From Leclercia adecarboxylata (GTDB lineage: Bacteria; Pseudomonadota; Gammaproteobacteria; Enterobacterales; Enterobacteriaceae): DNA of 64,000 nt. Position numbers and translations under genes: made by a program. Shown here piece after piece: positions 15,206 to 55,248 of the stretch (its first letter is position 1; each line of letters opens with the position of its first letter). Where the stretch lies: NCBI RefSeq assembly GCF_006171285.1, contig NZ_CP040889.1, forward strand, positions 3,472,001 to 3,536,000, read 5' to 3'. Under the pieces are notes generated by a model. The model saw only the letters and a program-made list of their open reading frames with translations, was not told where the DNA came from and searched no databases.

Positions 15206-15751
<546 letters not shown>

Positions 15752-15760
15752 GAGAATTGC

Positions 15761-16552
15761 ATGAGCAGTAACTTCAGACATCATCTATTGAGTCTGTCGT
15801 TACTGGTTGGTATAGCGGCCCCCTGGGCCGCTTTTGCTCAGGCACCAATCAGTAGTGTCGGCTCAGGCTCGGTAGAAGACCGGGTCACCCAACTCGAGCG
15901 TATTTCTAATGCTCACAGCCAGCTTTTAACCCAACTTCAGCAGCAGCTCTCTGACAACCAGACCGATATTGACTCACTGCGCGGACAGATTCAGGAAAGC
16001 CAGTACCAGCTCAATCAGGTTGTGGAGCGTCAGAAGCAGATCATGCTGCAGATTGATAACCTGAATAACGGCGGCGCAGCAGCGCAACCGGCAGCAGGGG
16101 ATCAGGGGGCAGCCGGTGCGCAGGCAACACCTCAGGCTGATACGTCAGCCTCGACAGCGGCGCCTGTACAGAGCGGTGATGCGAATACTGACTACAATGC
16201 GGCAATCGCCCTGGTGCAGGATAACTCGCGTCAGGACGAGGCTATGGCGGCGTTTCAGAACTTCGTCAAGAAATACCCCGATTCAACCTATCAGCCAAAC
16301 GCTAACTACTGGCTGGGGCAGTTGAATTACAACAAGGGTAAAAAAGACGACGCGGCATTCTATTTTGCCTCTGTCGTTAAAAATTATCCGAAATCACCGA
16401 AAGCACCTGACGCGATGTACAAGGTCGGGGTGATCATGCAGGACAAAGGCGACACCGCAAAAGCGAAAGCCGTTTTCCAGCAGGTGGTCACTAAGTTTCC
16501 GGGCACCGAAGGTGCAAAACAAGCGCAAAAACGCCTTGCTGCGATGGGTTGA
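15761..16552 (+). CDS. cpoB: Cell-division coordinator CpoB (YbgF)
   Basis: Periplasmic protein of 263 aa with a signal peptide (about 1-26, ending FAQA). A coiled-coil trimerisation segment (about 38-108, Gln-rich) and a low-complexity Ala/Gly/Gln linker follow, and the C-terminal half holds TPR repeats (ANYWLGQLNYNKGKKDDA and similar). In E. coli it links outer-membrane constriction by Tol with septal PBP1B activity. It follows pal by 9 bp and closes the operon. Confidence 0.96.
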   Translation: MSSNFRHHLLSLSLLVGIAAPWAAFAQAPISSVGSGSVEDRVTQLERISNAHSQLLTQLQQQLSDNQTDIDSLRGQIQESQYQLNQVVERQKQIMLQIDNLNNGGAAAQPAAGDQGAAGAQATPQADTSASTAAPVQSGDANTDYNAAIALVQDNSRQDEAMAAFQNFVKKYPDSTYQPNANYWLGQLNYNKGKKDDAAFYFASVVKNYPKSPKAPDAMYKVGVIMQDKGDTAKAKAVFQQVVTKFPGTEGAKQAQKRLAAMG

Positions 16553-34033: not shown

Positions 34034-35029
34034 ATGAAACAAACCGTTTATACCGCCAGTCCTGAAAGCCAGCAGATCCATGTCTGGCGTCTGAATCCCG
34101 AAGGTACGCTCACCCTGGTTCAGGTTGTCGATGTTCCCGGCCAGGTTCAGCCGATGGTGATCAGCCCGGATAAACGTTTCCTGTATGTGGGTGTTCGCCC
34201 GGAGTTCCGCGTACTTGCGTACCGTATCTCTCCTGAAGATGGCGCCCTGACGTACACTGCCGAAGCCGCGCTGCCGGGCAGTCCGACGCATATCTCTACC
34301 GATCTGCAGGGACGCTTTATCTTTAGCGGCTCCTACAATGCCGGTTGCGTCAGCGTGACCCGCCTTGACGACGGTATTCCTGCTGAGACCCTTGAGGTGG
34401 TTGAAGGGCTGGAAGGTTGCCACTCGGCCAACATCTCTCCGGATAACCGTACCCTGTGGGTACCGGCGCTGAAGCAGGATCGCATCTGCCTGTTTACCCT
34501 GGGCGATGACGGCAAACTGACCGCGCAAAACCCGGCGGAAGTGACCACCGTTGAAGGTGCGGGCCCGCGTCACATGGCCTTCCATCCGAATCAGAAGTAC
34601 GCCTACGTGGTGAATGAGCTGAACTGCTCGGTAGACGTCTGGGCGCTGAGCGATCCGCACGGTAAGATTGAGTGTGTGCAGACCCTGGATATGATGCCGG
34701 CAGATTTCACCGATACCCGCTGGGGCGCAGACATTCACATCACCCCTGACGGACGTCACCTCTATACCTGCGATCGTACCTCCAGCCTGATCACCATCTT
34801 TAGCGTTTCTGAAGATGGCAGCGTGCTGGCTATCGAAGGCTTCCAGCCGACCGAAACGCAGCCGCGCGGCTTTAATGTCGATCACAGCGGTAAGTTCCTG
34901 ATTGCGGCAGGGCAGAAATCGCACCATATCGCGCTGTATGAAATTCAGGGCGAGCAGGGACTGCTGGAAGAGAAGGGACGTTACGCCGTCGGCCAGGGGC
35001 CAATGTGGGTGGTCGTTAACGCTTACTAA
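34034..35029 (+). CDS. pgl: 6-phosphogluconolactonase Pgl
   Basis: Seven-bladed beta-propeller lactonase of 331 aa (cycloisomerase-2 type), second step of the pentose phosphate pathway. Motifs include [36 protein letters not shown] and the C-terminal [12 protein letters not shown]. The frame starts at a GTG at 34016, but ATG 34034, preceded by AAAGGAG, matches the E. coli start and length. It ends just before the terminator it shares with the antitoxin-like RNA. Confidence 0.97.
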
Positions 35030-35041
35030 GACGGATGAAAT

Positions 35042-35070
35042 AAAAAACCTCGCAGATGCGAGGTTTTTTT
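35042..35070. terminator. Bidirectional terminator shared by pgl and the IstR-like RNA
   Basis: Stem CCTCGCA/TGCGAGG (35048-35054 and 35057-35063) flanked by AAAAAA and TTTTTTT, so it has a T tract on both strands. On the plus strand it ends pgl, and on the minus strand it would end the RNA starting near 35111. Confidence 0.9.
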
Positions 35071-35111
35071 ATGCCCGGTGGTAGCCGGGTGAGCACATCG
35101 GAAACACCAAC
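35042..35111 (-). ncRNA. Candidate IstR-like antitoxin RNA
   Basis: Minus-strand transcription unit inferred from sequence. The promoter has -35 TTTACA (35141-35146), a 17-bp spacer and -10 TAAGAT (35118-35123), placing the start near 35111. The first 21 nt (35111-35091) would be complementary, except for one G-U position, to the toxin mRNA at 35374-35394. A small hairpin CCCGG/CCGGG and then the terminator at 35063-35048 complete an RNA of about 70 nt. E. coli IstR-1 (about 75 nt) has the same design: a 5' antisense stretch and two hairpins. Expression is not demonstrated. Confidence 0.75.
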
Positions 35112-35250
35112 CTCTGTATCTTAATTCCGGCCCGACCCTATGTAAAATCAACTAACGTCGGCTTGAGAGCATACACTTGCAGCATTAATGTTATTTAATT
35201 GAAATATATTAAATTTTGCTGAAATCTAAATGAAATCTTAATCTCCATAA

Positions 35251-35270
35251 AACTGTTTTTATATACAGTT
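35251..35270. promoter_or_regulatory. LexA box upstream of the tisB-like gene
   Basis: AACTGTTTTTATATACAGTT is a near-palindromic CTG-N10-CAG SOS box with the preferred AT core. It lies about 190 bp before the small ORF at 35460 and overlaps a TATATA that could be the -10 (35261-35266). Confidence 0.88.
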
Positions 35271-35373
35271 CCCGAAGACTACAATACCGCCGTTGGTTCG
35301 ATATGAGCAGTTCCGCAAATCAGGTTTCTTAAAGTCCTGGCTGGCGGGTGGTGCCGTCAGTACCTTAACTGTG

Positions 35374-35394
35374 GAGCATATCGGAAACACCAAC
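35374..35394 (+). repeat. Direct repeat forming the antitoxin target in the toxin leader
   Basis: The 21 bases here match 35091-35111 with one change (T for C), sharing ATCGGAAACACCAAC. As the upstream copy is transcribed from the opposite strand, the repeat gives an RNA able to pair with this leader. The site ends 65 nt before the toxin ATG, a standby-site position rather than a direct block of the ribosome binding site. Confidence 0.85.
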
Positions 35395-35459
35395 AACCAC
35401 TGGCGACAGGCAGCGGAAAGGTAAGTCAGTGGAAGTGCTCCTGACCAAAGGAGTGGCGT

Positions 35460-35549
35460 ATGAGCAGTATGGGATGGATGATTCTGTTCCTGCAACTCAT
35501 GGTTGCAGTTCTGCAACTGCTGGATGCGTATCTTAAAACCGGTGCCTGA
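35460..35549 (+). CDS. tisB: TisB-like type I toxin peptide
   Basis: A 29-residue hydrophobic peptide, MSSMGWMILFLQLM then VAVLQLLDAYLKTGA. It aligns without gaps to E. coli TisB (29 aa), sharing the block IL-x-L-x-L-x-VA-x-LQLLDA-x-LK. TisB inserts in the inner membrane and collapses the proton gradient during the SOS response, favouring persistence. AAAGGAG lies 6 bases before the ATG and can pair with an upstream CTCC (35438-35441), so the site is likely masked. It has a LexA box upstream, an antitoxin-like RNA divergently placed and a terminator at 35569. Homology is from memory of TisB and no search was run. Confidence 0.85.
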   Translation: MSSMGWMILFLQLMVAVLQLLDAYLKTGA

Positions 35550-35568
35550 CGCGTTCAGCCGCAGCATC

Positions 35569-35592
35569 AAGGGGGAGTTGCTCCCCCTTTTT
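35569..35592 (+). terminator. Terminator of the tisB-like mRNA
   Basis: AAGGGGGAG/CTCCCCCTT stem with a three-base loop and a run of five T, 20 bp after the toxin stop and 11 bp before the convergent ybhC stop. Confidence 0.9.
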
Positions 35593-35602
35593 GCTAATCA
35601 GA

Positions 35603-36886
35603 TTACTGCTTCGGCTCTGCAATCACCTTGCTGCCCACACCGCGGTTGTTGTATTCCCACATGCGGTTGAAGTTAGCGTCGTTGAGGTTACGCTGCACGT
35701 TGCCTTTATCATCTACCGCACCGGTGTTACCCGCATACGGACGCTGAGAGATGGCGGCGTTGCCCCAGGGTTTTGCCATGTTGAAGCCTTCGTTGATCAC
35801 GCTGTCGCGGATCACCACCTGACCGTTAGTGCCTGAATCGATATCCAGCGAACGGCCCAGCTGCGCTACGCCATCGCCCATTGCGGTAAAGCGGCTGTTT
35901 ACCGCCAGGAAGCCGTAGAACAGGTTGGACTGCGTCGCCGGCGCGAAGACGTAGCCTTCCTGCTGGGTACGGGTATTCATGACGCGGAAATCGGTGTTAT
36001 CAAACACCACGGCACCGCGACCGGAGACAATATCCACATCCCCTTCGATGTAGCTGTTGGTCACCAGCGTACGGGTGATGCGGTTATTTTTCAGGGTGTT
36101 CTCAACGCCGCTGTTGGTGACGAAGAAGGTGTTCTGGCGACCCAGGATATTCACCTTGTCGATTTGCACCTGATCGCCATCGCTGCGCAGAGCCACCGCC
36201 TGGTGGTTACCGGCATCGACGCTGTCGCCCAGATTGTTTTCGATGGTCAGGTTCTGCAGCTGCAGGCCGTTGTTCTGCGACCAGAAGACCGCAGAACACA
36301 TCAGGCCAACGGTGGCGCTGTGCTTGCTCTGGCAACGGTCGAACATATACCAGGCGGGTTTACCCGGCATGTATTTACCACCTGGATTGACCAGATGACG
36401 CCAGGTCGTGGTGTCCATCTCAGAGTCGATTGCCAGACCAATTTTGACATCAATTGGCTTCTCACCCGTACCGTACAGCGTCACGCTGCCCGGTGCGGCA
36501 GGCACATACACGGTACCTTCGTACTCGCCCGGTAAAATAGCGATGTACTGGCGGGAGCTGCTGTGCTTAGCAATGGCTGCATCAACTGCCGCCTGAATGG
36601 TGGTATGGGTAACGCCCTGGGTTCCCGCCGGGCCAACCACAAAGTTGGGTTGCGCAGGCAGGCGGATGGCATAAGGACTCCACGGCGCTGCGTTCGGATC
36701 CATGTCCGTAAAGTAACGCGCCTGCTGGAAGTTTTTCGCTTCATCAGCGGAGAGGATCGGACGGGAAGCCGTGCCCGGCGCGGCCTGCTCTGATGGCAGC
36801 TGATCCGGCGGGGTAGAGCTGCACGCTGACAGCGTCACGCCAAATGCGAGTGCCAGCGCCAGACGAGAAATCCTGGAAATGTTCAA
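35603..36886 (-). CDS. ybhC: Outer-membrane lipoprotein YbhC (pectinesterase family)
   Basis: 427 aa lipoprotein with a right-handed beta-helix of the pectin methylesterase family. In E. coli it is described as an acyl-CoA thioesterase. It starts at TTG 36886: AGGAG lies 6 bases upstream, the product then has exactly the E. coli length, and the signal ends in lipobox LSAC with Cys22. The longer frame from 36901 would swallow the ribosome binding site. Family motifs include GTQGVTHTTIQAAVDAA, SQNNGLQLQNLTIEN, VALRSDGDQVQ and YIEGDVDIVSGRGAVVFDN. Confidence 0.93.
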   Translation of the reverse strand: MNISRISRLALALAFGVTLSACSSTPPDQLPSEQAAPGTASRPILSADEAKNFQQARYFTDMDPNAAPWSPYAIRLPAQPNFVVGPAGTQGVTHTTIQAAVDAAIAKHSSSRQYIAILPGEYEGTVYVPAAPGSVTLYGTGEKPIDVKIGLAIDSEMDTTTWRHLVNPGGKYMPGKPAWYMFDRCQSKHSATVGLMCSAVFWSQNNGLQLQNLTIENNLGDSVDAGNHQAVALRSDGDQVQIDKVNILGRQNTFFVTNSGVENTLKNNRITRTLVTNSYIEGDVDIVSGRGAVVFDNTDFRVMNTRTQQEGYVFAPATQSNLFYGFLAVNSRFTAMGDGVAQLGRSLDIDSGTNGQVVIRDSVINEGFNMAKPWGNAAISQRPYAGNTGAVDDKGNVQRNLNDANFNRMWEYNNRGVGSKVIAEPKQ

Positions 36887-36934
36887 GGGAAGCTCCTGCA
36901 AAGCATATCAATAGGGGGATAACCGAAATAGCCT

Positions 36935-54076: not shown

Positions 54077-54147
54077 AAGCCGACGATAGCGAAACTCTGT
54101 TTAACAAGCTAATATCGGCATAACCACGTTTTCATTACTGAAAACAT

Positions 54148-54258
54148 ACACTCTAGCCCTGGCACCTGTGTCGACAGATATGGTGCCCTGGCCGTGGCGG
54201 TTTCGCCACCAGGGTACAGGAAGAAATGACTGTGCCTCCCGTATCAGGAAAGGTGTAC
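54148..54258 (+). ncRNA. Moco (molybdenum cofactor) riboswitch
   Basis: The leader directly before moaA has the conserved outline of the Moco RNA motif. It opens with ACACTCTAGCC, followed by hairpin GGCACC/GGTGCC (54161-54166 and 54182-54187), hairpin GTGGCG/CGCCAC, then the AGGAAGAAATGACT region with GTACAG/CTGTGC pairing and TGCCTCCCGTATC, ending AAAGGTGTAC at the start codon. In E. coli it lowers moaA expression when cofactor is sufficient, at least partly at translation. Confidence 0.9.
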
Positions 54259-55248
54259 ATGGCTTCACAACTTACCGATGCATTCGCGCGTAAGTTTTTT
54301 TACCTGCGTTTGTCGATTACCGATGTGTGCAACTTCCGTTGCACCTACTGCCTGCCGGATGGCTACAAACCCGGCGGCGTCACCAATAACGGCTTTCTCT
54401 CCGTGGATGAAGTGCGCCGCGTCACGCGCGCGTTTGCCGCCATGGGAACCGAGAAGGTCCGTCTTACCGGCGGCGAACCCTCGCTGCGCCGGGACTTCAC
54501 CGATATCATCGCGGCGGTGCGTGAAAATGACGCCATCCGCCAGATAGCGGTCACCACCAATGGCTATCGTCTGGCGCGCGATGTCGCGCAGTGGCGCGAT
54601 GCGGGCCTGACGGCGATTAACGTCAGCGTCGACAGCCTCGATGCCCGTCAGTTTCATGCCATCACCGGCCAGGATAAATTCCACCAGGTGATGGACGGCA
54701 TCGATGCGGCATTTGCTGCTGGCTTCGAGAAGGTGAAGGTCAACACCGTGCTGATGCGCGATGTGAACCATCATCAGCTGGACACCTTCCTGGCGTGGAT
54801 CAAACCCCGCCGCATTCAACTGCGCTTTATCGAGCTGATGGAGACGGGTGAGGGCAGCGATCTCTTCTCCCGCCACCACATCTCCGGCATGGTGCTGCGC
54901 GATGAACTGCTCAGGCGTGGCTGGATCCACCAGCTTCGCCAGCGCAGCGACGGCCCGGCGCAGGTCTTCTGCCACCCCGACTACGAAGGGGAGATCGGGC
55001 TTATCATGCCGTATGAAAAAGACTTCTGCGCCAGCTGTAACCGCCTGCGCGTCTCGTCGGTGGGCAAACTGCACCTGTGCCTGTTTGGCGACGGCGGCGT
55101 CGATCTGCGCGATCTGCTGGCCGATGACGCGCAGCAGGCGGCGCTGGAAGGCCGCATTTCTGACGCGCTGATGCACAAAAAGCAGACCCATTTCCTGCAT
55201 CAGGGCAACACCGGGATCACCCAGAACCTGTCATACATTGGCGGGTAA
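54259..55248 (+). CDS. moaA: GTP 3',8-cyclase MoaA
   Basis: Radical-SAM enzyme of 329 aa that starts molybdopterin synthesis from GTP. The N-terminal cluster motif is [12 protein letters not shown] (CxxxCxxC). The C-terminal cluster is in [23 protein letters not shown]. The C-terminus ends GG, needed in the family. An in-frame ATG at 54226 lies within the riboswitch. ATG 54259 ([13 protein letters not shown]) is the conserved start, placed right at the riboswitch end. First gene of moaABCDE. Confidence 0.97.

Follow-up and report, generated by a model that had tools for sequence, protein, structure and literature searches.

The gap between pgl and ybhC in Leclercia adecarboxylata (positions 35030-35602 of the window, the whole 64,000-nt stretch of DNA analysed) contains all the elements that a sequence-only reading had named there, at the same positions. 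They and their flanking genes are arranged as follows.

34034..35029, + strand: pgl (6-phosphogluconolactonase), upstream flank (NCBIfam NF008258, 566.1 bits, cut-off 370)
35042..35070, both strands: bidirectional intrinsic terminator (13-bp perfect inverted repeat, 35042-35069)
35042..35111, - strand: IstR-1-like antitoxin RNA, predicted length about 70 nt (covariance model R1, 95.7 bits; alignment)
35091..35111, - strand: 5' end of the antitoxin, whose first 21 nt are the pairing region (direct repeat D1)
35118..35146, - strand: sigma-70-like antitoxin promoter, TTTACA-17-TAAGAT (promoter scan)
35251..35270, + strand: candidate LexA (SOS) box AACTGTTTTTATATACAGTT, with a CTG-N10-CAG core at 35253-35268 (from sequence only)
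35280..35285, + strand: -10-like TACAAT of the toxin promoter (TTTATA-16-TACAAT)
35293..35459, + strand: leader of the toxin mRNA, about 167 nt from the predicted start
35374..35394, + strand: antitoxin target and presumed ribosome standby site (direct repeat D1), ending 65 nt before the start codon
35448..35453, + strand: Shine-Dalgarno sequence AAGGAG, mostly paired in the predicted fold (unpaired 0.34)
35460..35549, + strand: TisB-like toxin ORF of 29 aa with Q12 (PF13939 and TIGR04459 above cut-off)
35563..35595, + strand: terminator after the toxin ORF (inverted repeat I2; terminator scan)
35603..36901, - strand: ybhC, downstream flank (NCBIfam NF007822, 685.3 bits, cut-off 436)

The sequence-only reading had interpreted this arrangement as a tisB/istR-like, SOS-controlled type I toxin-antitoxin locus. 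The hydrophobic ORF of 29 codons to which it had pointed passes both TisB models. The SOS box it had placed at 35251 is confirmed: the pattern CTGTWWWWWWWWMCAG occurs at a single place in the whole window (listed on both strands) and is absent from 100 shuffles (mean 0.00). The minus-strand promoter was recovered at 35146-35118, as one of three promoter-like sites in the region, where 0.9 were expected. The 21-base direct repeat, held to make the minus-strand RNA complementary to the leader of the ORF, is identical at 20 of 21 positions, and the pair co-varies between species. Both terminators were found as described, the one at 35563-35595 as an inverted repeat. The other, at 35042-35070, is in addition the pgl terminator, and would end pgl on the plus strand and the antitoxin RNA on the minus strand. 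The toxin mRNA would start near 35293, judging by promoter spacing. The antitoxin RNA is laid out as a 5' pairing region, a CCCGG-CUACCA-CCGGG stem-loop and the terminator, and the predicted duplex between its 5' end and its own target has an energy of -36.7 kcal/mol. Since the ORF passes the TisB models and the repeat pair co-varies between species, the locus stands beyond chance, and its parts, the TisB models and the co-varying repeats support a tisB/istR-like type I locus of SOS type as the best reading. Elsewhere in the window, Rfam models match a molybdenum cofactor riboswitch (54137-54271, + strand, RF01055, 93.7 bits) and a CpoB/ybgF RNA thermometer (15652-15790, + strand, RF02782, 142.1 bits).

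Among SOS-induced type I toxins, TisB has been studied intensively. The window ORF scores 37.1 bits against PF13939 TisB_toxin (cut-off 25) and 39.7 bits against TIGR04459 (cut-off 38), and misses the narrower NF011340 (29.3 bits, cut-off 53). No Pfam or NCBIfam model other than those of TisB matched the peptide. The antitoxin scores 28.0 bits against Rfam istR (RF01400), below the gathering score of 45, so that a default Rfam scan of the window omits it. Judged by curated models, the pgl-ybhC locus belongs to the TisB family, and its predicted anatomy is that of tisB/istR-1; it is set apart from canonical tisB/istR-1 by its place, its RNA family score and its lack of K12, a residue considered below.

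The only other TisB match in the same genome, C2:2097753-2097830, is 58% identical. It sits between emrD and ilvB (NCBIfam NF008654 and NF006016 above cut-off), and its surroundings match Rfam istR at 111.8 bits. The sequence-only reading had regarded the pgl-ybhC locus as a member of the tisB/istR system at a different chromosomal location, and had suggested looking for an ilvB-side copy. The kind of system holds, and a canonical tisB/istR is indeed present on the ilvB side, which makes the pgl-ybhC copy a paralogue and rules out the mere relocation of a single tisB copy. A recent duplication is likewise unsupported. In a tree of 31 hand-picked canonical loci and 13 of the 15 intact second loci (14 from the genus and one from Trabulsiella odontotermitis), the second and canonical lineages separate with 100/100 support. 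The window thus holds a second, paralogous and apparently insulated system, not a moved copy.

TisB matches over the cut-off were found in 59 of the 61 genus genomes and in 78 of 392 genomes sampled from the family. At the pgl-ybhC site, 17 of the 61 genus genomes (that of the window, G000, and 16 others) carry a TisB coding sequence, always flanked by both genes; 14 of these loci are intact and one, L018, has an internal stop. Outside the genus, T. odontotermitis (G453, locus L148) is the sole case of a second copy beside pgl and ybhC among the family loci with fetched flanks. A scan reaching close relatives identified whole or broken loci in Leclercia sp., Silvania confinis, Enterobacter cloacae, E. 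chuandaensis, E. sichuanensis, T. odontotermitis, and Lelliottia sp. The site was read in 43 of the other 44 genus genomes, G033 having no pgl match. No second TisB over the cut-off was found in these 43 of the 60 genus genomes with the site read; at three of these sites (L121, L123, and L127) no ybhC was detected shortly after pgl. The pgl terminator is kept at 43 of 43 sites without the system, which indicates that the antitoxin borrows an older pgl terminator. On the ybhC tree (18 present and 40 absent rows, the three absent sites just named having no usable ybhC), this distribution requires 12 changes, at least 11 of them forced by the starred branches. Such a patchy spread would reflect either an old locus that was lost often or a locus that moved between relatives together with its flanks.

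The antitoxin gives a similar distribution. Model R1, a covariance model built from 15 antitoxin RNAs including that of the window, matches 19 of the 61 genus genomes at 74.5 bits or more, the other listed matches reaching at most 53.3 bits. These correspond to the 17 holders and to two genomes (G055 and G014) with antitoxin remains and no whole toxin ORF. Above 70 bits, the family list contains just G000, G028, and G453, the next match scoring 48.5. At low scores the model is non-discriminating: it matches all 61 genus genomes at an E value of 0.01 and 189 of the 392 family genomes at 0.001, which we attribute to its terminator part, and the genus calls are defined only by the gap between 74.5 and 53.3 bits. 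A locus carried as mobile or phage cargo is disfavoured, pgl and ybhC flanking all 17 genus loci. In viral contigs, 165 stretches matched a pattern and none was confirmed as a relative. Five records of a phage collection (two named Salmonella and three named phages) match over at most 24% of the query each, and none of 17 matching plasmid records reaches 80% query coverage.

The second-copy antitoxins share a GUUGG start, a changeable core of several nucleotides, a conserved GUGC, a CCGG-type stem, an ACCA-containing loop, and the terminator. Between species, the leader target changes along with the antitoxin core: of 331 cells from the 15 intact loci, 318 pair, and two-sided changes occur in 7 of 23 columns. 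Predicted duplexes with the locus's own target average -33.1 kcal/mol, against -24.6 kcal/mol with those of the others. When each of the seven core types was represented by one hand-chosen locus, the own assignment was the best of 5040. L015, L016, and L018 lie outside these pairing tests; the target of L010, from which an insert separates the start codon, was found only with a search span wider than 130 nt. One further locus, L164, gave no ORF under the filter used. The CTG-N10-CAG box is present in 15/15 intact loci, and box, target, ORF, and antitoxin are retained together in 14 of the 17 genus loci. Among 17 aligned antitoxin promoters, 14 have an exact TTTACA and 16 a TANNAT; L006 and L008 lack TTTACA. 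Between the SOS box and the antitoxin promoter, a stretch that bears on an SOS-controlled longer IstR-2, the alignment shows no conserved columns. Random drift of the ORF and of the repeat pairing in close relatives, named beforehand as an outcome at odds with a tisB/istR-like system, is not what we observed: two-sided changes keep the pairing and pN/pS is about 0.2-0.4, some loci being broken.

Gene conversion between the repeats, in place of selection for RNA pairing, might also account for their match. They lie 280-291 nt apart in most intact loci and could recombine, and in L018 a single repeat is left, the stretch between the repeats being gone. However, the window repeats resemble each other only up to the predicted RNA start and the flanks are untouched, which disfavours this explanation, and several columns show one-sided changes that preserve a G-U pair. 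We consider gene conversion quite improbable.

Canonical pairs were collected by a repeat scan. Their core, close to CACACTGTGTTACGTCAAC, is near-invariant in the family loci scanned; no convincing canonical repeat pair was found in L019, L032, L062, L064, L137, L140, and L161. A divergent TisB group characterized by E22 (L021 and L149-L151) has its own, largely self-matching antitoxin cores. Pairing between the two systems of the same cell was computed in 12 of the 14 genomes tried: own duplexes range from -29.4 to -39.7 kcal/mol and cross duplexes from -8.1 to -21.3 kcal/mol. The result leaves out L005 and L013, where insertions interrupt the canonical loci and no canonical pair was found, and the test excludes L007, where the canonical copy is absent. 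As duplex energies ignore folding and concentration, the insulation is a prediction. Within this frame, each of the two TisB toxins of SOS type seems to be silenced by an RNA insulated from the other system.

The pgl-ybhC locus is thus very probably a second type I system of tisB/istR kind, working in parallel to the canonical one and insulated from it. LexA would repress the toxin promoter until DNA damage lifts the repression. In the long leader, ribosomes would use as their standby site the stretch whose end lies about 65 nt upstream of the start codon. A constitutive antisense RNA of about 70 nt, transcribed divergently and ended by the pgl terminator, would pair with this stretch through its first 21 nt and block translation. 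Under SOS conditions the mRNA would outnumber the antisense RNA, and the 29-aa peptide would reach the inner membrane. We infer LexA binding, expression, SOS induction, processing, the standby mechanism, silencing, and membrane toxicity without K12 from the genomic evidence.

The E. coli tisB mRNA is described as having to lose its 5' end first; ribosomes then load at a single-stranded standby site, and IstR-1 competes with them for this site (PMC4147584). The second locus shares this geometry, with a target end 62-69 nt upstream of the start codon in 14 of the 15 intact loci, the fifteenth, L010, having an insert. In the window, the predicted mRNA fold leaves the start codon largely paired (unpaired 0.09), and removal of 42 nt makes the predicted target more open in 12 of 14 rows. 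Hiding of the Shine-Dalgarno sequence fails in 5 of 14 rows (L009, L011, L012, L013, and L017, unpaired 0.52-0.87 in predicted folds). A 5' cis element pairing with the standby site looked plausible by eye, but its own-pairing was not significant (3582 of 40320 assignments as good or better).

Several loci have lost parts of the system. In L015 and L016 the target and the Shine-Dalgarno sequence are gone and the antitoxin is whole; the SOS box and a -10-like TATACT lie directly upstream of the start codon, and the toxin transcript may be nearly leaderless. L018 has lost, with the stretch between the repeats, the promoter and the SOS box, and its ORF is interrupted by an internal TAG. In these three loci, a small number, target loss goes with damage to toxin expression, as would be expected if an unsilenced toxin were harmful. 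L010 carries about 125 nt, presumably an ERIC-like element, between target and Shine-Dalgarno sequence, and is otherwise intact.

The canonical copy has been lost or interrupted as well. In G046 (L168) there is no canonical TisB match: the region before ilvB holds other sequence, including an ORF that we take to be Hcp-like, and the second copy is the only TisB match. In G039 (L170), an insert starts right at one edge of the canonical tisB LexA box; its 495-aa ORF seems similar to group II intron maturases. In G023 (L171), an insert with a 406-aa ORF, which we assume to be transposase-like, splits this box and duplicates 8 bases. Two unrelated insertions are thus located at the same canonical SOS box in two genomes.

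The broken second loci, the antitoxin remains of G055 and G014 and the many changes required on the ybhC tree would also fit a decaying relic, an old duplicate being lost whose parts are still good in some species. Yet the joint retention of box, target, ORF, and antitoxin in most genus loci and a pN/pS similar to that of canonical tisB make such a relic very unlikely. For the second copies, pN/pS is 0.37 and 0.20 in two subgroups and 0.43 over all, against 0.41 for 19 canonical loci. These ratios indicate that the second-copy ORF is under purifying selection, and the simplest interpretation would be that the peptide has retained some function worth both preserving and silencing.

The second peptides differ from canonical TisB at several positions. 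Tallied over 17 sequences (16 from the genus and that of Trabulsiella; L018, because of its stop, is out of the residue and pN/pS tallies), they have Q12 and W6 in 17/17, Y or F at position 24, and never a basic residue at position 29. Among 90 distinct canonical loci, position 12 is K in 85 and R in 5, and position 29 is R in 67 and K in 23. In E. coli TisB, K12 and Q19 are reported to be essential, the variants K12L, K12R, and K12D being non-functional, and a basic residue to be mandatory in at least one of positions 26 and 29 (Leinberger and Berghoff, PMC11449926). Q19 is present in 17/17 second-copy peptides and K12 in none. The window peptide has its basic residue at 26, as K26, which is shared by 16 of the 17 tallied; L014 is basic at neither 26 nor 29. 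R12 occurs in the canonical peptides L022, L033, L042, L043, and L066 (5/90), despite the loss of function reported for K12R in E. coli (PMC11449926). The alignment presented in PMC11449926 names six canonical hosts, and how the charged residues of TisB work is described there as unsettled.

We tentatively propose, as a serious possibility, that TisB has split within one genome into two lineages. In the first, old and near-frozen, position 12 is K or R and the antitoxin core hardly varies. The second would be insulated through an RNA code that evolves, and its peptide would act on the membrane without K12, perhaps via a glutamine stripe formed by Q12 and Q19. It is rather unlikely, but conceivable, that the second peptide is instead no longer a depolarising toxin, being either a milder relative that would enter TisB oligomers and dampen them or a peptide with another membrane role, the RNA setting only its dose. 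The uniform Q12, the lack of K or R at position 29 and the behaviour of the E. coli K12 variants (PMC11449926) agree with this alternative, as does net charge: the three second-copy peptides for which it was computed have 0, -1, and -1, and the canonical peptide of the window's genome has +1. However, the 15 intact loci have all retained matched antitoxins, suggesting that unsilenced translation is costly, and in G046, with the second copy only, the TisB partner is absent.

Compared with tisB/istR-1 of E. coli, of the family and of its own genome, the second system has the same SOS box, long leader and target about 65-70 nt before the start codon, the same divergent antitoxin gene with GUUG start, ACCA loop, and terminator, and a 29-aa peptide with Q19 and D22. 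It differs in its pgl-ybhC site, in forming a clade of its own, in its other and changeable pairing core, in its peptide (Q12 for K/R12, a non-basic position 29, W6, and Y or F at 24), and in an antitoxin that falls under the Rfam threshold and uses the pgl terminator. The zor/orz, shoB/ohsC, and dinQ/agrB systems of E. coli are likewise described as having a divergent antisense RNA that pairs inside a long toxin leader, off the start site (PMC4147584), but their peptides belong to other families. Two related type I pairs per chromosome are also described for zorO-orzO and zorP-orzP of E. coli O157:H7 (PMC3919570); these are of another family, whereas the TisB copies are unlinked and form separate lineages. 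Copy-number variation of tis/istR has been reported within E. coli (Shore et al., PMC11264685). Judged by titles and the openings of abstracts, our literature search found no earlier report of a second tisB copy.

The second system offers a natural series for following how an antisense RNA co-evolves with its target and remains separate from a paralogue present in the same cell. Work on tisB in Enterobacter, Leclercia, and Lelliottia may meet this second locus. A TisB lineage free of K12 and under purifying selection would either break the strict-lysine rule or reveal a second role.
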